A DNA stretch of 64,000 nt from Rhizobium sp. CCGE531 (GTDB taxonomy: Bacteria; Pseudomonadota; Alphaproteobacteria; Rhizobiales; Rhizobiaceae). The translations under genes were made by a program, and so were the position numbers. The stretch's first letter is position 1. The number at the start of each line of letters is the position of its first letter. Positions 8,043 through 19,171 of this stretch are shown here, in pieces. The notes beneath the pieces are model-generated. The model saw nothing but the letters and a program-made list of their open reading frames with translations. It was not told the origin of the DNA and made no database searches. The stretch covers positions 969,001-1,033,000 of the forward strand of contig NZ_CP032684.1 of the NCBI RefSeq assembly GCF_003627795.1, in the 5' to 3' direction.

Positions 8043-11033
8043 ATGCGTCTTTCCCGAACGACACTTTCCAATACGTCTCAAGGCGTCCAGCCGGAGGGCG
8101 ATCTTGACCCGGAGCAGGCGGCCGAAGAGGCGCGCCGAGCCGAGCAGATCGCTGCTCGCCGCGCGTTCCTGGAAGAGAAGATTCGCAGCGCCCGCGAAGC
8201 CAAGCGCCAGGCTGAAGAACAGCGCCGCGCCGAGGAAAAGCGCCTTGCCGAAGAGGTGAGGCAGCGCACCGCCGCTGCGCCGCCGCCGGTCGTGGAAGCG
8301 CTGCAGGCCGCCGCTATCGTAAGCGAGCAGGAAATGCCCGTTCTGCCGCAGGGAATCTCCGCGGAAGATCTCGCATCGCCGGGCTGGCAGAACGCGTTCC
8401 TGATGGGGCCGAACGTACGGTTCACCCGCACGCGCGAAAACGAAATCATCAGCCGCCGTCCGCCCGCCGAGCCGAAGCCCGAGATTCGCCAGCAGGTCTC
8501 CGCGCACGCGATCATGCGGATGATGGAGGCGCCGGTCGTCGAGGCGCCCGCCGCGCCGGCTGCAACCCCGGCTGCAACCATTGTCGTTCCGCCCGCGCGG
8601 CGGGACGAGTTCTATCTGCCGCCGCTCGAGGACATGCCGCTGGTGGTGGGAAGCTACATGCCGACAGTAATTCAGAATTCTCCGGCAACCGCGCCGGACG
8701 CATTGGAGATGACCGTTATCGCTACCGCATTTTCGAAAGCTCCCGCGATCGCGCTGGACGCTTCACCAGTACAGTCAAGTGTTCCCGAGTCCCTAGCCGC
8801 GCCTGTGGTCGAGTCGCGTCTTGTCCATCTTTCCGATTTCGCCTTCTGGGATGCGATGCCGTTCGACGGCGAGTTCGTCTCGGCCCTCAGGGGTGAGCCG
8901 AAGCAGCCGGCAATGCCGCCCAAGCCGGAAGTCGATGCCGAATCGATCATTGCGAAGTTCCGCGTCGTCGAATGCCGCCGCCCGGTTGGTGCCAGCGAGC
9001 AGCCTTTTATCGCGTCGTCTCCGGCAGCCGAAATCGTAGCTCCCGTCGAAACCGCTTCCAGCCTTTCAGCGACGCATCTCAGCACGCCGGCCATGGACGA
9101 GCTTGCCGCGCTTGAGGCTGCCGTTCTGGCTCCTCTCGTCGAGGCGGCGCCCGTCGTTGTCGAAGCACCTGCTGCCGAGCCGCAGGCTGCGGTGGCGCCG
9201 ACCAAAACATTCACGCCGCCTGCTTTCGTAACTGCGGTCTATGGGTCGGAAGCCGCTCCGGTTATCGAATCCCGTCCAGCGCCGATGATGGTCGTCGCGC
9301 CGATGCCGGCCAAGGTCGCAGCCCCTGCGCCGGCCGCGCCGGTTGCCAAGGCTACGCCGACGATTCCGGCGGTCGAAGCCGCAGCCCAGCGCCTGATCGA
9401 TGCACCGCCGTCACGGGTTGTGCCACGCCGCCCCGCGTCGCTGACGCCGCCCGAGTGGCGGCCGATCGCTCCCAGCGTTGATGGCGAATACGAGCTGCCG
9501 CCGCGCGAACTGCTGCAGGAACCCGTCGCCCGTTCCGGCGTGATCATGACGCAGGAAACGCTGGAGCAGAATGCCGGCCTGCTGGAAAGCGTGCTCGAAG
9601 ATTTCGGCGTCAAGGGCGAGATCATCCATGTCCGTCCCGGTCCGGTCGTCACGCTCTATGAATTCGAGCCGGCGCCTGGCGTCAAATCCTCGCGCGTCAT
9701 CAATCTTGCAGACGATATCGCCCGTTCGATGTCGGCCCTGTCCGCTCGCGTCGCCGTCGTTCCCGGCCGCAACGTCATCGGCATCGAACTGCCGAACGTC
9801 AACCGCGAGACCGTCTATTTCCGCGAGATGATCGATTCGCCCGATTTCGAAAAGAGCGGCTATAAGCTTGCCCTCGGCCTCGGCAAGACGATCGGCGGCG
9901 AACCCGTCATCGCCGAGCTTGCGAAGATGCCGCATCTGCTTGTCGCCGGCACAACCGGTTCGGGCAAGTCTGTCGCCATCAACACCATGATCCTGTCGCT
10001 GCTCTACCGCATGACGCCTGAGCAGTGCCGCCTGATCATGGTCGATCCGAAGATGCTGGAACTTTCCGTCTATGACGGTATCCCGCATCTCCTGACCCCC
10101 GTCGTCACCGATCCCAAGAAGGCCGTTATGGCGTTGAAATGGGCGGTGCGCGAGATGGAGGATCGCTACAAGAAGATGTCGCGCCTCGGCGTGCGCAATA
10201 TCGACGGCTACAACAGCCGCGTTGCCTCCGCCAAGGAAAAGGGCGAGACGATCCACGTCATGGTCCAGACCGGCTTCGACAAGGGCACCGGTGCCCCGAT
10301 CGAAGAGCAGCAGGAAATGGACCTGACGCCGATGCCCTATATCGTCGTCATCGTCGATGAAATGGCCGACCTGATGATGGTCGCCGGCAAGGAGATCGAA
10401 GGCGCGATCCAGCGTCTGGCGCAGATGGCGCGTGCCGCCGGTATCCATTTGATCATGGCGACGCAGCGTCCCTCGGTCGACGTCATCACCGGCACGATCA
10501 AGGCGAACTTCCCGACGCGTATCTCCTTCCAGGTCACGTCGAAGATCGACAGCCGCACCATTCTCGGCGAGCAGGGCGCCGAACAGCTCCTCGGGCAGGG
10601 CGACATGCTGCACATGGCCGGCGGCGGCCGTATCTCCCGCGTTCACGGCCCCTTCGTCTCCGACGAGGAAGTCGAGAAGGTGGTCGCGCACCTGAAGCTG
10701 CAAGGCCGTCCGGAATATCTCGACACGGTCACGGCCGACGAGGACGAAGAAGACGAGGAAGAGGACACGGCCGTCTTCGATAAGGGCGCGATTGCCTCGG
10801 AAGACGGCGATGATCTCTACGAGCAGGCGATCAAGGTGGTCATGCGCGACAAGAAGTGCTCGACCTCCTACATCCAGCGTCGCCTTGGCATCGGCTACAA
10901 CCGCGCCGCCTCGCTCGTCGAGCGCATGGAGAAGGACGGCCTGGTCGGTCCCGCCAACCATGTCGGCAAGCGCGAGATCATCACCGGCAACCGCAATGGC
11001 GGCGGCAATTCGGGCAATGAGGATTTTGAGTGA
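8043..11033 (+). CDS. ftsK: FtsK/SpoIIIE-family DNA translocase without a membrane domain
   Basis: A 996-residue ATP-driven double-strand DNA pump, which in this family aligns chromosome dimers for XerCD/dif resolution at division. Seen: Walker A GTTGSGKS at residues 636-643, Walker B IVVIVDE at 767-773, the [21 protein letters not shown] block, and a C-terminal winged-helix gamma domain (about 920-985) that reads KOPS. Residues 20-80 are a charged Ala/Glu/Arg coiled coil, and 80-490 are a low-complexity Ala/Pro/Val linker. The four N-terminal membrane helices of classical FtsK are absent. The ATG at 8043 is chosen; the upstream region is not coding in this frame. The alphaproteobacterial paralogue with membrane helices is probably elsewhere in the genome. 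Confidence 0.9.
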
Positions 11034-11072: not shown

Positions 11073-11263
11073 ACCCCCCTCTGTCACTGTCGTGACATCT
11101 CCCTCACAAGGAGGGAGATCGTTGGGAGTTTGCCGCTCGTAGCTCACAAAATAGCGAGCTGCAATTTCAATGCGTTCGATCTTTGCTTAAGGCGAGGGGG
11201 TGCCTCAGGTTACCAATCTCCCCCCCTTGTGGGGGAGATGTCACGAAAGTGACAGAGGGGGGT
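11073..11263. repeat. Long inverted-repeat intergenic element (element B, copy 1)
   Basis: An arm at 11073-11120 (CCCCCCTCTGTCACTG..GTGACATCTCCC) is repeated in inverted orientation at 11218-11263 (GGGGGAGATGTCACG..GTGACAGAGGGGGG). The arms flank about 97 nt with no gene. It resembles the mosaic palindromic elements (RIME-like) of rhizobia. It follows ftsK and is convergent with the MOSC gene, so it may also end both transcripts. Confidence 0.75.
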
Positions 11264-11359
11264 ATCAGAGGTTCAGCATACTCAGAGCTAGCTGGCCGGG
11301 CCCTGCCACCATCATCCACAAGCATGCCTGCCTGACCCATAACGGCGTCGATCTCGATA

Positions 11360-11926
11360 TCAAACACGCTCGAGCTTGAGATGCGGCAGCGGCGGCAGCT
11401 CGATGCGGATGGCGTCGTCGGGTTGCACGCAACCACCCTGCGAGACGATGCCCATGATGCCGGCCTTGCGGACCAGACCGCCATCGGCATCTTTGTCCAG
11501 CACCGCGTGCAGCAGGCCCTTTTGAAAATCGTCGATCTGCTTGCAGGGGTTGCGCAGGCCCGTCACTTCGACAATCGCTTCCTCGCCCAGATGCAGGCGC
11601 GTGCCTTGAGGCAGGGAAAGCAGGTCGATCCCTCGGGTCACGATATTCTCGCCCATGTCGCCCGGCATGACGGAAAATCCCTTTTCCGTGAGCTCGTCGA
11701 ACAGCTCTTCGTGGATGATATGCACCTGGCGCAGATTGGGCTGGGTCGGATCGACGGCGACGCGCGAGCGGTGTTTCACCGTCACTCCCATATGTGCGTC
11801 GCCTTCCACGCCAAGGCCTGTCAGCAGTTGAATGTGATCCTTGGTCTGCTTGCTGAACTCGTGCACACCGCTGCTGCTCACTGATGTCACATATATGCGC
11901 TTGTCGCCCATGCTGAACCCTTCCAT
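11360..11926 (-). CDS. MOSC domain protein
   Basis: A 188-residue single-domain protein of the MOSC family, which includes the molybdenum-cofactor sulfurase C-terminus and YiiM/YuaD-type proteins and typically uses a conserved Cys. Seen: GVEGDAHMG, HIIHEELFDEL, PGDMGENIVTRGIDL, LHLGEEAIVEVTGLRNPC (likely the functional Cys) and GIMGIVSQGG. The start could be ATG 11926 or ATG 11911 (MGDKRIY); the latter has AAGGG 6 nt upstream and is equally good. A role in sulfur or molybdenum-cofactor handling is inferred from family only. It is separated by 53 nt from the FAD oxidase gene on the same strand. Confidence 0.88.
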   Translation of the reverse strand: MEGFSMGDKRIYVTSVSSSGVHEFSKQTKDHIQLLTGLGVEGDAHMGVTVKHRSRVAVDPTQPNLRQVHIIHEELFDELTEKGFSVMPGDMGENIVTRGIDLLSLPQGTRLHLGEEAIVEVTGLRNPCKQIDDFQKGLLHAVLDKDADGGLVRKAGIMGIVSQGGCVQPDDAIRIELPPLPHLKLERV

Positions 11927-14463: not shown

Positions 14464-15081
14464 TCAAAGCTGGCGAATGATGTCGCGAAGCTGCTCGTTG
14501 CGCGCGCCGAGCAGGAGAACGTTGCGGATGGCGATCTGCGGATCGTGGGTGTGGAACAGCACGCCGTTGCCGCGAATGTCGCGATTGATCGTCAGCTTCT
14601 TGTCTTCCGCTTGCCTGTCCGGATGGATGGCGACGGCGAAATACATCCGCGAATATTTGAGGCTGATGTCCTCGAAGAAGTTCTCTTCCTGGCCGATGCG
14701 GGCAAAGAAATTGGCGATATAGAAGGCCCAGTTCACTTCCTCATATCGCGCGAACTGAGTCCGCGCGGCCGTCACATGACAATAGCCGAGATGCGGCGTG
14801 TCCTTCAGCGTGTGATGAAAGATGAGTTTCGGAAAGCGGATGGACTTGTGGAAATTGTTGAGCCGGTCATGGGTCTTTTCGCCGGCGTCGCGGAGCTTCA
14901 GCGCCGTGCGCTCGGCCACCTGTTCATGGGTGAGGTATTCCCGCTCTTCCGCCAGCCAATGCGGCCTGTTGCGGTTGATGCGGCCGGTGCGCAGGAACTC
15001 GCTGTACCCCGTCGTCGATACCGCTGGCGCCGGTTCGGGCTCGGCGGGCTTCCCAGCGTCGAAATATCTGAGTTTGGCCAT
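14464..15081 (-). CDS. Conserved hypothetical protein
   Basis: A protein of about 205 residues if started at ATG 15081 (MAKLRYFDAGKP), which has GAGG 6 nt upstream; an ATG 33 nt earlier lacks a ribosome-binding site. It has no signal peptide or membrane segment. It is rich in His, Arg, Tyr and Phe, with KLIFHHTLKDTPHLGYCHVTAARTQ trimmed here to its key His cluster HH..H..H and a C-terminal FHTHDPQIAIRNVLLLGARN. It looks like a rhizobial orphan family (possibly DUF6656, from memory). The clustered His could bind metal; no function is assigned. Confidence 0.65.
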   Translation of the reverse strand: MAKLRYFDAGKPAEPEPAPAVSTTGYSEFLRTGRINRNRPHWLAEEREYLTHEQVAERTALKLRDAGEKTHDRLNNFHKSIRFPKLIFHHTLKDTPHLGYCHVTAARTQFARYEEVNWAFYIANFFARIGQEENFFEDISLKYSRMYFAVAIHPDRQAEDKKLTINRDIRGNGVLFHTHDPQIAIRNVLLLGARNEQLRDIIRQL

Positions 15082-15114
15082 GCCGGACCTCGCTATAAAC
15101 TCTTTAGGCGACAT

Positions 15115-15442
15115 GATGGATCATGGAGCTTGAGCCGAGCTTAATCGCGCCGGACCGAAAGCTCCCGATGGCGGCTCTGCTGGCGCTTTCCGCCGCCCAA
15201 TCATTACCCTGATTATCGGCCGTTCGCGGGCCTGTCGCAATCAGGATAAAGCGTCATCGGCGGAATGCGCATGCGATGCGCGGGCCTTCTCCCATGCAAG
15301 CACCTAAGAGATTGAATCACCTTTCTATATTGTCACGACATGCAACCGTCCCATCGTCCGGTTTCGCCTGTCGTCAATTTCGAAGCGGATGTCGCATTGC
15401 AGCACAGCGGCCGATCGGGCCGAGGGATATGATGACATCAAT
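15115..15442. other. Intergenic region upstream of the riboswitch
   Basis: About 330 nt between the divergent hypothetical gene and the cobalamin aptamer. It must contain the promoter for the riboswitch transcript, but I cannot fix a -35/-10 pair. No small ORF or RNA stands out. Confidence 0.4.
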
Positions 15443-15621
15443 CTCAAGGTGCCGTCTGCTAGGGAGACGGAGAATTGGGAAGCCGGTCAAAATCCGGCGC
15501 TGCCCCCGCAACGGTGGTGGAGTAAGGCATGGCGAATTAAGCCACTGGGTCGATCGACCTGGGAAGGTGCCATGGGGCTCTGGAAACAGGGCCGCTCCAG
15601 AGCCCGGAAACCAGCCTTGGG
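15443..15621 (+). promoter_or_regulatory. Cobalamin (adenosylcobalamin) riboswitch aptamer
   Basis: The hallmark blocks occur in order: GGTGCC (15448-15453), GGGAAGCCGGT..AATCCGGCGCTGCCCCCGC then AACGGTGG (about 15477-15520), GCCACTG (15541-15547), TGGGAAGG (15559-15566), a peripheral stem GGGCTCTGG/CCAGAGCCC and the closing GAAACCAGCC (15607-15616). CAAGG (15445-15449) pairs with CCTTG (15615-15619) as closing helix P1. The B12-box core and the conserved GAAACCAGCC end make this a full-length class I type aptamer. It lies directly upstream of a Rieske oxygenase gene on the same strand. Cobalamin switches normally lower expression when B12 is plentiful. Confidence 0.93.
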
Positions 15622-15654
15622 CACATATGGTTTACTGATCGCGGCGGGCGGTCG

Positions 15655-15730
15655 GGACATTGCTTTCGGCTGTCTTCAACCAGCCATGCATGTCCTTCGC
15701 CCGTTTCCTGGTACTGCGAAGGATAGGCAA
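15655..15730 (+). promoter_or_regulatory. Candidate expression platform: hairpin hiding the ribosome-binding site
   Basis: TCCTTCGC (15693-15700) is perfectly complementary to GCGAAGGA (15716-15723), which contains the ribosome-binding site 7 nt before ATG 15731. A competing helix is possible between GGACAT (15655-15660) and ATGTCC (15690-15695), stacked on GGCTG/CAGCC (15669-15673 with 15681-15685). The two overlap at 15693-15695 and so are mutually exclusive. This suits translational control by the upstream aptamer. Structure is by eye, not by energy calculation. Confidence 0.6.
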
Positions 15731-16975
15731 ATGGATATCGGCAGCAAAGTTCTGCGGCAATTGAAGAACCACCGGACGGGTTTGAGTCTGGAGCAACCAT
15801 TCTATACCGATCCGGATTACTTCAAGCTCGATATGGAGACGATCTACTATCGCGACTGGCTGTTCATCGGCCATGATTGCGAAGTGCCGCGCGCGGGCAA
15901 TTATTTCACCGTCCAGATCGGCGATTATCCCGTCGTCATCGTTCGCGGTCGCGATCAGGTCATCCGCGCCTTCCACAACAGCTGTCGCCATCGCGGCTCG
16001 CGTGTCTGCTCGACCGAACGCGGCTCCTCGGCAAAGCTCGTCTGCCCCTATCACCAGTGGACCTACGAGCTTGACGGCTCGCTGCTCTTCGCCCGCCAGA
16101 TGGCCGAGGATTTCGACAGGAGCCAGCATTCGCTGAAGCCGGTTCATTGCGAAAGCGTCGGCGGCTACATCTTCGTCTGCTTAGCGCAGAACGCTCAGGA
16201 CTTCGCGCCGGTTCGCGCGTCGATCGAGCCTTACATGGCACCGCATCGCATCAGCGAAGCCAAGGTTGCCTTCCAGAGCACCATCATCGAAAAGGGCAAT
16301 TGGAAGCTTGTCTGGGAAAACAACCGCGAGTGCTACCATTGCGCAGCCAATCACCCCGAACTTTGCCGCACCTTCCCGGAAGCGCCGACCGTCACAGGCG
16401 TGCAGGGCGCGATGAACGACCCCGTCATCACCGAGCACTGGCAGCGCTGCGAAGCTGCCGGCCTGCCGAGCGAATTCAAGATCTCGCCGGATGGCCAGTT
16501 CCGCGCCGCGCGCATGCCGCTGATCGAAGGGGCCGAGAGCTACACCATGTCCGGCCAGAACGCCGTCAGGCGGCCGCTTTCACCCGATGTGACGATCAAC
16601 GGCATCGGCACCATGCTGCTGTTCCATTACCCGACGACGTGGAACCACATTCTCGGCGACCACGCGATTTCGTTCCGCGTCCTGCCGATCAGCGCCGAGG
16701 AAACCGCCGTCACCACCAAGTGGCTCGTCCACAAGGATGCCGTCGAGGGCGTCGACTATAATCTGGAAGAGCTGACCCACGTCTGGACCGAAACCAACGA
16801 TCAGGATCGCCGTATCGTCGAGGAAAATGCCTTCGGCATCCGCTCGCCGGCCTATGAGCCCGGCCCCTATTCGGAGATCCATGAAGGCGGCGTCATGCAG
16901 TTCGTCGAATGGTACACGACGTTCATGATCAACCGGCTGCAGGGCGACCAGGCCAAGCTGTCGGCGGTTGCCTGA
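15731..16975 (+). CDS. gbcA: Rieske oxygenase alpha subunit, glycine betaine/stachydrine demethylase type
   Basis: A 414-residue ring-hydroxylating-type oxygenase. Relatives GbcA and Stc2 remove an N-methyl group from glycine betaine or stachydrine as formaldehyde using O2 and electrons from a reductase. Seen: Rieske [2Fe-2S] ligands C85-x-H87 and C105-x2-H108 (CRHRG, CPYH); mononuclear iron motif NNRECYHCAANH with H203 and H208. The start is ATG 15731 with AGGA 7 nt upstream; the frame is open through the riboswitch but that part is not coding. The reductase gene follows after 2 nt. Expression is likely governed by the cobalamin riboswitch in its leader. The substrate is inferred from family and partner gene; carnitine or other betaines remain possible. 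Confidence 0.83.
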   Translation: MDIGSKVLRQLKNHRTGLSLEQPFYTDPDYFKLDMETIYYRDWLFIGHDCEVPRAGNYFTVQIGDYPVVIVRGRDQVIRAFHNSCRHRGSRVCSTERGSSAKLVCPYHQWTYELDGSLLFARQMAEDFDRSQHSLKPVHCESVGGYIFVCLAQNAQDFAPVRASIEPYMAPHRISEAKVAFQSTIIEKGNWKLVWENNRECYHCAANHPELCRTFPEAPTVTGVQGAMNDPVITEHWQRCEAAGLPSEFKISPDGQFRAARMPLIEGAESYTMSGQNAVRRPLSPDVTINGIGTMLLFHYPTTWNHILGDHAISFRVLPISAEETAVTTKWLVHKDAVEGVDYNLEELTHVWTETNDQDRRIVEENAFGIRSPAYEPGPYSEIHEGGVMQFVEWYTTFMINRLQGDQAKLSAVA

Positions 16976-16977
16976 AC

Positions 16978-18066
16978 ATGAACATGGCCGTTCCCCTTTC
17001 GCATCGCCACCTCGACCAGATGCAGCCCTGGAGCGACAGGCAGCATCTGCTTGAATGCCTCTCGGCAACGCCCGAAGCGCCCGACGTGATGACCTTCACG
17101 TTCCGGTCCGACGAGGACAACTGGTTCCGCTATCTGCCGGGCCAGTTCGTGACGCTGGAGCTGCCAACGGCTCCGGAGCCGGTCATGCGCACCTATACGC
17201 TGTCGTCGACGCCGTCGCGGCCCTTCTCGGTCGCCGTGACGGTGAAGGCACAGAAGGACAGCATCGGCACGCGCTGGATGTTCGAGAACCTGAAGCCGGG
17301 CATGCGCGTCAAGGCTTTCGGCCCGCTTGGCGATTTCAGCCATATCCGTCATCCCGGCGAAAAATATCTCTTTGTCTCCGCCGGCTCCGGCATCACGCCG
17401 ATGATGTCGATGACGCGCTACATGGCCGACACGGCGCCGCTGTCGGATATTACCTTCGTCAACTGCTCGCGTAGCCCGGCCGACATCATCTTCCGGTCCG
17501 AGCTCGAATATCTCGCCCGCTTCATGCCTAACCTCAATCTCGGCCTGATCGTCGAGGGTTGCGGCCGCACCGATCTCTGGTCGGGATTGAAGGGACGCAT
17601 CGACAAGGCGAAGATCGGCCTGCTGGCGCCCGATTTCATGGATCGGACCATCTTCTGCTGCGGCCCGGAAGTCTTCATGGACGCCGTGCGCTCCATGCTG
17701 GAGGCGCATGGCTTCGACATGTCGCGCTACCACCAGGAAAGCTTCCAGCCGGCGAATGCGGCAACGCCGCTTGCGGAGGTTTCCGATGATGCGTCGGGCG
17801 AGGCTGCGACGACGATCCGTTTCACGATGGCCGGCAAGGACGTCGTCTGCGCGGCGGGTCAGACCGTGCTGCAGGCCGCGCGCGGCGCCGGTGTGCGCAT
17901 CGGTGCGGCCTGCGAATCGGGGCTCTGCGGCACATGCCGGGTGCTGAAACTCTCGGGCGAAGTCGAGATGAGCCACAATGGCGGCATCCTCGATGACGAG
18001 ATCGAAGAGGGGTATATCCTCGCCTGCTGTTCGCGTCCGAAGACGGATGTCCAGGTCGAGGCCTGA
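16978..18066 (+). CDS. gbcB: Ferredoxin reductase partner of the Rieske oxygenase
   Basis: A 362-residue electron-transfer protein that takes electrons from NAD(P)H through FAD to a plant-type [2Fe-2S] cluster and on to GbcA. Seen in order: FAD-binding beta-barrel with RTYTLSSTPS (about 77-86), nucleotide-binding domain with FVSAGSGITPMMSM, CCGPEVFMDAV near 225, and a C-terminal ferredoxin domain with CESGLCGTCRVL followed by a fourth Cys in ACCSRP. Starts at ATG 16978, only 2 nt after the gbcA stop, so the pair is translationally linked and falls under the same riboswitch. Annotation pipelines often call such proteins hybrid-cluster oxidoreductases; the cluster here is [2Fe-2S]. Confidence 0.85.
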   Translation: MNMAVPLSHRHLDQMQPWSDRQHLLECLSATPEAPDVMTFTFRSDEDNWFRYLPGQFVTLELPTAPEPVMRTYTLSSTPSRPFSVAVTVKAQKDSIGTRWMFENLKPGMRVKAFGPLGDFSHIRHPGEKYLFVSAGSGITPMMSMTRYMADTAPLSDITFVNCSRSPADIIFRSELEYLARFMPNLNLGLIVEGCGRTDLWSGLKGRIDKAKIGLLAPDFMDRTIFCCGPEVFMDAVRSMLEAHGFDMSRYHQESFQPANAATPLAEVSDDASGEAATTIRFTMAGKDVVCAAGQTVLQAARGAGVRIGAACESGLCGTCRVLKLSGEVEMSHNGGILDDEIEEGYILACCSRPKTDVQVEA

Positions 18067-18166: not shown

Positions 18167-19171
18167 TCAGAAATCCTGATAGTTCAGTTCGTTGATCTCG
18201 ACCGGTTTCGATTGCGGGGTTGATGCCGTAACGACGGGATCGACCATCAGCGAGACGAGCGTCTGCCGTGGCCCGTTGCACGTCGGCGCCTGTGCGATCA
18301 TCAGGTCGGGCGCCGGCAGCGGCCTGGCCGGCAGGAGATCGCCCTGCGGCCAGATCCTGGCGAGCTGAACCTTCGTCATCGGCACGACATTGACGTCGAT
18401 ATCGGTCAACGTGCCCGGTACGCGATAGGGGCAGCTCTTCTCGGAGCAATTGTCCGAAGAAGCGAACTGCCAGATGGCATAGCTGTCCCAATTGCCGAGC
18501 GGAAAGGTGCCCTTCACGTCAGGCTTGTAACGCGCGTACCACAATGGCAGCCGCGATAGCAGCGGATAGTTGTCCCGGTGATCGGCGATGTATCGCGCCG
18601 TATTATGGTTGACGTAGAGAATGGGGTAGCGCCCGGTCCTGACCTTGATATGGGCCACGAAGATCTGGGCGTCCTCAAGCGACATGAATTGCGCCGTGTC
18701 TATGCCGTCTATGTCGAGTACCATCAGCTCGTCCGGCTGCGGATCGGCATAGTCGAGAAAATGATTGGCCTGATCGATCGGATTGCCAGGCCGTCCCAGG
18801 TGATAGGCGCCCCATAACAGGCCATTTGCCTTTGCCAGCATGCGGCGGGTCTGGAACAGCTCGCGGCTGACCGCATATTTGCGCCACATCGTCCGACAAT
18901 GGGCCACCGTATCGCCGCCGTGGTCGCCGGTGCAGCTGAAGCTTTCGGGCAATCCGTCGGAGGCCTTGGAGATGAAACCGGCGATCCGTTTGTCCTGCAG
19001 AAATGCGTTCCAGTCGATGGTGTTCAGCTCGTAAGCATCGACGATGAGGGCGTTTTTCGGATCGCTCCAAGGCTGGCTTTCGCCGGCCGAAGGCTCGGAG
19101 ACCGGCCCCATCAGGGTCAGGATCGTCAGCAAGCCGCAAATCAGGAGGTTACTCTGCCGGTATCCCTTCAT
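18167..19171 (-). CDS. Secreted GH25-like (lysozyme-family) protein
   Basis: A 334-residue protein with an N-terminal signal peptide or anchor (hydrophobic residues 8-24, then PSAGESQP). Residues 40-260 fit the glycoside hydrolase 25 barrel: ALIVDAYELNTIDW, GFISKASDG, LWGAYHLG, DELMVLDIDG, YPILYVNHNTARYI, LPLWYARY and YAIWQFAS. Family members hydrolyse the beta-1,4 bond of peptidoglycan in the periplasm or outside. Odd: the catalytic D-x-E motif reads D153-I-D155, so the expected acid Glu is Asp. Two or more Cys pairs suggest disulfides. The last 75 residues are a Pro-rich tail of unknown role. Activity is therefore uncertain. Confidence 0.75.
   Translation of the reverse strand: MKGYRQSNLLICGLLTILTLMGPVSEPSAGESQPWSDPKNALIVDAYELNTIDWNAFLQDKRIAGFISKASDGLPESFSCTGDHGGDTVAHCRTMWRKYAVSRELFQTRRMLAKANGLLWGAYHLGRPGNPIDQANHFLDYADPQPDELMVLDIDGIDTAQFMSLEDAQIFVAHIKVRTGRYPILYVNHNTARYIADHRDNYPLLSRLPLWYARYKPDVKGTFPLGNWDSYAIWQFASSDNCSEKSCPYRVPGTLTDIDVNVVPMTKVQLARIWPQGDLLPARPLPAPDLMIAQAPTCNGPRQTLVSLMVDPVVTASTPQSKPVEINELNYQDF

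Follow-up and report, generated by a model that had tools for sequence, protein, structure and literature searches.

The window analysed here, a 64-kb stretch of the Rhizobium sp. CCGE531 genome (NZ_CP032684.1, positions 969,001 to 1,033,000), carries a complete cobalamin riboswitch aptamer directly 5′ of a gbcA-gbcB-like gene pair that encodes a Rieske oxygenase and its reductase. On the basis of the distribution of this leader among relatives and of the genes that accompany it, we propose that a classical cobalamin riboswitch probably represses a vitamin B12-independent betaine demethylase while a B12-dependent route can work. We also lean, with less confidence, towards a broader view, in which B12 supply sets the fate of the betaine methyl carbon via RNA, and in which the switch, GbcAB and the B12-dependent Mtg system make up a co-evolving module with repeated decay of the switch after loss of Mtg.

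The window gave a single Rfam match at gathering level, to the cobalamin riboswitch family RF00174, on the plus strand at 15430-15633 (110.5 bits versus a gathering score of 31.5, E = 8e-27, complete 1-189). An earlier note on this DNA had placed a complete cobalamin aptamer at this position and had named the Rfam covariance models as the check to run; the strength of the match, far above the gathering score, bears out the element, although the start that the note gave, 15443, lies 13 nucleotides (nt) inside the match. The end of the aptamer and the gbcA start codon are 97 nt apart. A terminator or an unmarked gene in between, either of which would have spoken against the arrangement, was looked for and neither is present: there is no terminator-like site in 15115-15800 and no gene between the aptamer and gbcA. 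The gbcA start, ATG 15731, is backed by an N-terminus that is conserved in eight aligned orthologues. The mechanically called open reading frame starts at 15389 (528 amino acids) and reads through the aptamer; since this longest open frame spans the aptamer, automatic annotation could conceal the leader.

When the same arrangement was sought in relatives it was found to be conserved in many of them, though not in all. Eighty named relatives (Rhizobium, Sinorhizobium, Shinella, Mesorhizobium and others), the best of 580 confirmed ones, were scanned with a covariance model of our own, built from 18 gbcA leaders: 56 have a match directly 5′ of gbcA, and the remaining 24 have none there. As a control, the Rfam model matched all nine positives tested and none of the 24 switch-negative loci. 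Aptamer core and start codon are 230-266 nt apart in 53 of these 56 loci; in the remaining three the spacing is 345-348 nt. Within the host genus gbcA is present in all 37 genomes, with the switch 5′ of it in 14, no switch in 22 and one genome, G003, undeterminable because of a contig end. The 22 members that lack the switch retain gbcA as well as other RF00174 sites. For G007, G011, G017, G023, G026, G028 and G032, which are off the tree, absence of the switch rests on coordinate comparison, and for G017 it was additionally checked in the family leader scan.

Two side observations concern the architecture of these leaders. Three Mesorhizobium loci (L123, L124 and L129) have about 100 extra bases, including an inverted-repeat-like stretch, between the P13 hairpin and gbcA. 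L096 contains a second gbcA-type aptamer (8731-8960, minus strand; 167 bits with our own model) with no obvious gene behind it, flanked by the 3′ end of a metH-like frame on one side and that of gbcB on the other; the gbcB frame at this place is 316 amino acids long and is without the ferredoxin domain.

The switch is almost always accompanied by MTTB, counted here as any gene of PF06253, a family that spans several substrate specificities. In the host genus MTTB is found in 14/14 genomes with the switch and 0/22 without, and the same numbers hold for an MtgC orthologue (92-100 % identity), which was examined in 61 genomes only. Among the named relatives the figures are 56/56 with the switch and 1/24 without. 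A family sample of 151 genomes, 111 of which match MTTB (the other 40 being counted as without), includes 56 with gbcA at E ≤ 1e-150; in the leaders of the 53 new ones, MTTB goes with 35 of 36 switches and with 3 of 17 leaders that lack one, and in two of these three cases GbcA is only 57 % identical. Once duplicates identical to named loci had been removed (five genus loci and six of the 53 family leaders), 152 gbcA lineages with distinct proteins were left, 151 of them with known switch state (G003 being left out); L096 and G245, apparently the same genome, were both kept as rows. Both traits are present in 98 of the 151 lineages and neither in 48, while four have MTTB only and one has the switch only, which means that MTTB is also found in 98 of the 99 lineages that have the switch. 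This is the co-occurrence of a switch with a putative B12-dependent counterpart that is expected of a B12-independent isozyme. The Fisher value of 1.8e-33 disregards kinship and was not used.

Mapped on the GbcA tree, the switch goes through 12 changes and MTTB through 11; as we read this quick tree, there would have been about ten joint losses if the ancestor had both. A Pagel-type test of correlated evolution, run with a script of our own in which some rates lay at their bounds, gave a likelihood ratio of 40.1 (4 degrees of freedom, p = 4e-8), and 42.1 without the group with 57 % identity. The independent-pairs test on well-supported branches gives a weaker result: there are six pairs, with a mean of 4.8 in the same direction and none in the opposite one (median p 0.06). 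If MTTB is made the leading trait, there are seven pairs, with a median p of 0.03.

Damaged or altered switches were also found. In G004 (L047 1300-1430) an internal deletion has removed the aptamer core from the gbcA leader and has left both ends in place, and this genome has neither MTTB nor the MtgC orthologue. Horizontal transfer of the switch into G004, which is also without the two-subunit methylmalonyl-CoA mutase discussed below, was considered and rejected: in a comparison of 20 genomes the MetH-like protein of G004 falls with the switch-bearing clade, and the genes around its gbcA are shared, which makes loss in place more likely. G233 is the only lineage with a model match but no MTTB. 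Its score, 80.6 bits, is the lowest of 36, both its GCCACTGG box and its L13 loop are missing, and its L5 and GAAACCAGCC segment are altered, so that the switch looks broken. In all, 4 of 99 leaders (G200, G196, G233 and G223) have at least two mismatches in a conserved box or no L13. In G196 L13 is intact and L5 is one C short; the two changes of G223 lie near the GAAACCAGCC segment. In G200 (L189 1319-1538, minus strand), a genome with two MTTB matches, L5 is altered and a standard L13 is missing, and the switch is possibly defective or changed.

A candidate for the B12-dependent route is encoded elsewhere in the same genome. Three RF00174 sites were found in its 7.14 Mb: the one before gbcA, a second that precedes genes reading as a btuFCD-like uptake operon, and a third before genes reading as cobU-cobW-cobN, both operons having been named by eye from open reading frames. 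About 5-21 kb from this cob switch, with unrelated-looking genes interspersed, lies a B12-dependent betaine-type cluster (L157, Table 1), in which a PF06253 methyltransferase, a B12-binding protein and a pterin-binding methyltransferase co-occur, the gene set that defines MtgBCD. A similar gene set is described for Ruegeria pomeroyi, where mutants showed that glycine betaine demethylation depends on both MtgC and MtgD, and for Sinorhizobium meliloti, where mtgBCDE is found beside the cob operon (PMC12478193, 2025). The Mtg-type cluster is likely the B12-dependent counterpart of the GbcAB-like pair, with which it would share its reaction. B12-independent replacement enzymes had been listed in the earlier note among the usual targets of cobalamin switches, and it is this class that fits best, given the Mtg-type cluster and the co-occurrence of switch and MTTB.

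The CobN-like frame (L007 720-4718, minus strand) also contains a repeat-like stretch that keeps the reading frame (PPSVAFATSPPQGG ... PPISPLVGEMSAKLTEGG), and one resembling it is present in an open frame at 11167-11490 of the window.

The elements of the gbcA leader are collected in Table 1. The pairing of L5 with L13 was assigned by inspection and from the usual architecture of cobalamin riboswitches, and the segment GCCACTGG is presumably the one called the B12 box. If one mismatch is allowed, 97 of 99 leaders contain this octamer somewhere within their 450 nt. The L13 loop motif GCGG[ACT]GGGC was found in 57/57 leaders, and either the motif or its 8-nt core in 97/99. Covariation in the P13 stem was counted on 32 of the 57 leaders (24 distinct) and compared with 500 shuffles. 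The covariation score was 0.417 versus 0.285 (no shuffle as high) and cells changed on both sides numbered 12 versus 4.9. No excess was seen in pairs changed on both sides (3 versus 2.6, reached in 264 of the 500 shuffles) or in further pair types (10 versus 9.4).

Downstream of P13 the leader of the window has a stretch complementary to the Shine-Dalgarno (SD) region of gbcA (p = 0.005; fold z -1.7, with 10 of 200 shuffles equally good). A conserved SD-sequestering helix was tried and rejected: p is 0.05 or lower in no more than 4 of 57 leaders, the median being 0.48, and the anti-SD helix is therefore kept solely as a prediction for the window leader. Upstream of the aptamer, the pattern TGTC[GA]-N15..18-TGTCG[CT] is found in 122 of 151 leaders (73/99 with the switch and 49/52 without), where 0.2 would be expected from mononucleotide shuffles; the pattern was derived from these same leaders, and kinship is uncontrolled in its counts. 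Since the repeat is found both with and without the riboswitch, it suggests a shared transcription regulator, for which it looks like a tandem site.

Table 1. Features of the gbcAB locus (window coordinates) and of the B12-dependent cluster near the cob switch
Feature	Location	Strand	Basis
Direct repeat TGTCG-N16-TGTCG (21-bp spacing), candidate regulator site 5′ of the aptamer	15369..15395	+	Pattern counts in leaders
Cobalamin riboswitch aptamer, complete	15430..15633	+	RF00174 plus own covariance model of gbcA leaders
P5/L5 (GCTGCCCCCGC), kissing-loop partner	15499..15509	+	Invariant in 18-sequence alignment A2
Conserved segment GCCACTGG	15541..15548	+	CCACTGG invariant in 18-sequence alignment A2
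Hairpin P13/L13 with loop GCGGCGGGC, complementary to L5; candidate for the regulatory kissing loop	15635..15655	+	Motif conservation, stem covariation
Predicted anti-SD strand (UGUCCUUCGC)	15691..15700	+	Pairs with 15716-15725 in minimum-energy fold
SD region of gbcA (GCGAAGGAUA)	15716..15725	+	Ends 5 nt 5′ of ATG 15731
gbcA-like Rieske oxygenase, 414 amino acids	15731..16975	+	PF00355 63 bits, PF00848 113 bits
gbcB-like reductase (FAD, NAD, 2Fe-2S)	16978..18066	+	PF00970, PF00175, PF00111
OpuAC (PF04069), glycine-betaine-type binding protein, plus two genes reading as importer partners	cob-side cluster L157		
BHMT/MtgE-like protein	cob-side cluster L157		580 bits, cut-off 338
MTTB (PF06253; MTTB/MtgB)	cob-side cluster L157		764 bits
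B12-binding (corrinoid) protein, DUF1638, MetF-like protein	cob-side cluster L157		
Pterin-binding methyltransferase (MtgD-like)	cob-side cluster L157		396 bits, cut-off 259

These elements can be arranged into a possible course of events. Transcription would start upstream, perhaps under the regulator of the TGTCG repeat, and cobalamin would bind the aptamer, as the riboswitch family suggests. L5, which has the matching sequence anatomy, would then dock on L13, and docking would be linked to the ribosome-binding site of gbcA, which in the window leader is predicted to be masked by a 10-bp helix, one whose conservation is unsupported. Plentiful cobalamin would in this way lower expression of the O2-dependent GbcAB-like Rieske pair, and under the same conditions MTTB/MtgB, the corrinoid protein MtgC and the pterin-binding MtgD would hand the methyl group on to tetrahydrofolate and methionine. 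Under cobalamin shortage, derepression would allow the Rieske pair to take over and to oxidise the methyl group. Once the Mtg route has been lost the switch would be useless and would decay.

Several points weigh against this reading. Five of the 151 lineages are discordant: L089 (Ciceribacter lividus), G241, G229 and G237 have MTTB without the switch, G229 and G237 being the distant group with 57 % GbcA identity, and G233 has its damaged switch without MTTB. In G200 two MTTB matches stand beside an altered switch. Both the breadth of PF06253 and the 61-genome scope of the MtgC comparison count here, as do the rates at bounds in our Pagel-type script and the median p of 0.06 for the six independent pairs. 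In the cluster itself, the L157 corrinoid protein is below the NCBIfam cut-offs for MtgC (214 < 370, 182 < 310); the R. pomeroyi-type MtgC is reported to be distinct from the anaerobe type (PMC12478193). MTTB is also present, by subtraction, in 72 of the 95 genomes of the family sample that lack gbcA at E ≤ 1e-150, and with MTTB so frequent without this gbcA, a Rieske backup is not general. The null counts for P13, the rejected SD helix, the substrate of the pair and the distribution of a mutase belong on the same side, and the last two of these bear on alternative explanations.

The first alternative concerns the substrate. The oxygenase combines a Rieske and a catalytic domain and has a reductase gene adjacent to it, as GbcA/GbcB do; the first ATG of gbcB (16978) comes 2 nt after the gbcA stop, and the domain and NCBIfam searches for the reductase were run on 16981-18066. 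Within the NCBIfam pair NF058607/NF058606, GbcA is the best match of the oxygenase (521 bits, equivalog cut-off 670) and GbcB that of the reductase (384 bits, cut-off 500). The names gbcA and gbcB of the earlier note thus stand as the nearest in NCBIfam, but both subunits are under their equivalog cut-offs, for which reason we call the pair GbcAB-like. The closest solved structures of the GbcA-like protein are 3n0q, 3vca and 4qup, at 530-568 bits, and two of these three, 3vca and 4qup (530 bits), we take to be proline betaine demethylases. Given these near relatives and the unmet cut-offs, the substrate may be another betaine. The same isozyme logic would then apply to a different quaternary amine, such as proline betaine, carnitine or a choline derivative, for both the Rieske pair and its MTTB partner, and the several MTTB genes in many switch-bearing genomes fit this too. 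We consider it unlikely, however, as GbcA and GbcB are the best NCBIfam match of the two subunits and as OpuAC, a glycine-betaine-type binding protein, is encoded near the MTTB gene. The GbcAB-like pair is most likely an N-demethylase of a betaine, glycine betaine being the likeliest.

As to the surroundings of these genes, gbcAB is flanked by a DUF6656 gene (14464-15114) and a GH25 family gene (18167-19171), as it is in Sinorhizobium medicae L114. In G106, the genome of L110, two MTTB genes are split into adjacent frames and another copy is fully open.

A second alternative is coincidence of descent, with switch and MTTB lost jointly by clade, or through a general shrinkage of B12-dependent metabolism, and no direct functional link between them. 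Methylmalonyl-CoA mutase is present in all 37 members of the genus, and a second, small-subunit-like mutase match is found only in the 15 MTTB-bearing genus genomes and not in the 22 others. To regard the genus correlation as specific to MTTB was therefore rejected as too strong, the two-subunit mutase having the same distribution, and it is the wider set, together with the matching chemistry, that carries the case. Most of the switch-lacking genus members, moreover, form one clade. Set against this are the roughly ten separate joint losses on the best tree, the strong Pagel-type result, the retention of methylmalonyl-CoA mutase and of MetH-like genes in the whole genus, and the other RF00174 sites and gbcA that the 22 switch-lacking members have kept, all of which make coincidence quite unlikely.

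The earlier note had suggested that low B12, by causing B12-dependent methionine synthase to fail, rewires methyl or betaine metabolism. The direction of this suggestion is probable, but its cause is unsupported within the genus. MetH-like frames, recognised by corrinoid domain and length, are found in 37/37 members whatever their switch state (a partial frame in G003), and MetE is not associated with the switch, being present in 1/14 of the members that carry it and 4/22 of those that lack it. MetE/MetH was accordingly rejected as the driver for the host genus, where failure of methionine synthase would leave the pattern unexplained. The idea that gbcAB is induced to adjust methyl and betaine metabolism for methionine agrees with the link between betaine and methionine metabolism in R. 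pomeroyi and S. meliloti (PMC12478193) and with the BHMT/MtgE-like gene within the cluster, but GbcAB is reported to release formaldehyde (PMC12478193), not a methyl group for homocysteine, and we regard this explanation as improbable. It is hardly credible that GbcAB serves B12 synthesis itself, for instance by catalysing an oxygenase step, and that its repression is that of a biosynthetic gene: the other two switches of the genome do precede genes reading as B12 synthesis and uptake, but the pair is homologous to N-demethylases, and the presence of gbcA without a switch in 52 of 151 lineages speaks against such a role.

If repression of a B12-independent betaine demethylase is indeed what the switch does, B12 supply would decide in rhizobia and mesorhizobia whether betaine methyl groups enter one-carbon metabolism, being passed to tetrahydrofolate and methionine when B12 is present, or undergo Rieske oxidation when it is absent. 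It would also make part of the unresolved betaine demethylation story in S. meliloti testable, and would provide a rationale for a switch that has been catalogued in that species since 2007. Listings from 2007 and 2008 include a cobalamin riboswitch 5′ of S. meliloti SMc00982 (PMC2245857, PMC2573895), and the gene has been described as "likely encoding a dioxygenase" (PMC2848018). Based on the same arrangement in S. medicae L114, where DUF6656, switch, gbcAB and GH25 follow each other in the order of the window, we infer that SMc00982 is this gbcA-like gene; the parts of the three papers covered here give no function for the pairing of switch and gene. In the main text of the MtgBCD(E) paper (PMC12478193) the word "riboswitch" appears once, in the title of a glycine-riboswitch reference, and a gbcAB switch is not described. 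In the literature covered, no account was found of gbcAB or a Rieske demethylase being under the control of a cobalamin riboswitch. What is already known is the switch at SMc00982 and the isozyme class; what is new is the proposed Mtg partner system and the pattern of co-loss.

Two further known systems are among the closest parallels. Similar to GbcAB of Pseudomonas and Chromohalobacter, the pair in the window consists of a Rieske oxygenase and an FAD/2Fe-2S reductase in one operon; unlike them, it is under both equivalog cut-offs and has a cobalamin riboswitch leader. Isozymes of B12-dependent enzymes are an established class of cobalamin-riboswitch targets (PMC3766115), for which metE/MetH of P. 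megaterium is an example (PMC9600662). As in that case, a B12-independent isozyme would be repressed by cobalamin while its B12-dependent counterpart can work. Unlike the case with metE/MetH, the two routes would be oxygenative and methyl-transfer demethylation of betaine, which differ both in their reactions and in where the methyl carbon ends. If true, this would add an enzyme pair to the metE/MetH isozyme logic and would take cobalamin riboswitches into osmolyte catabolism.

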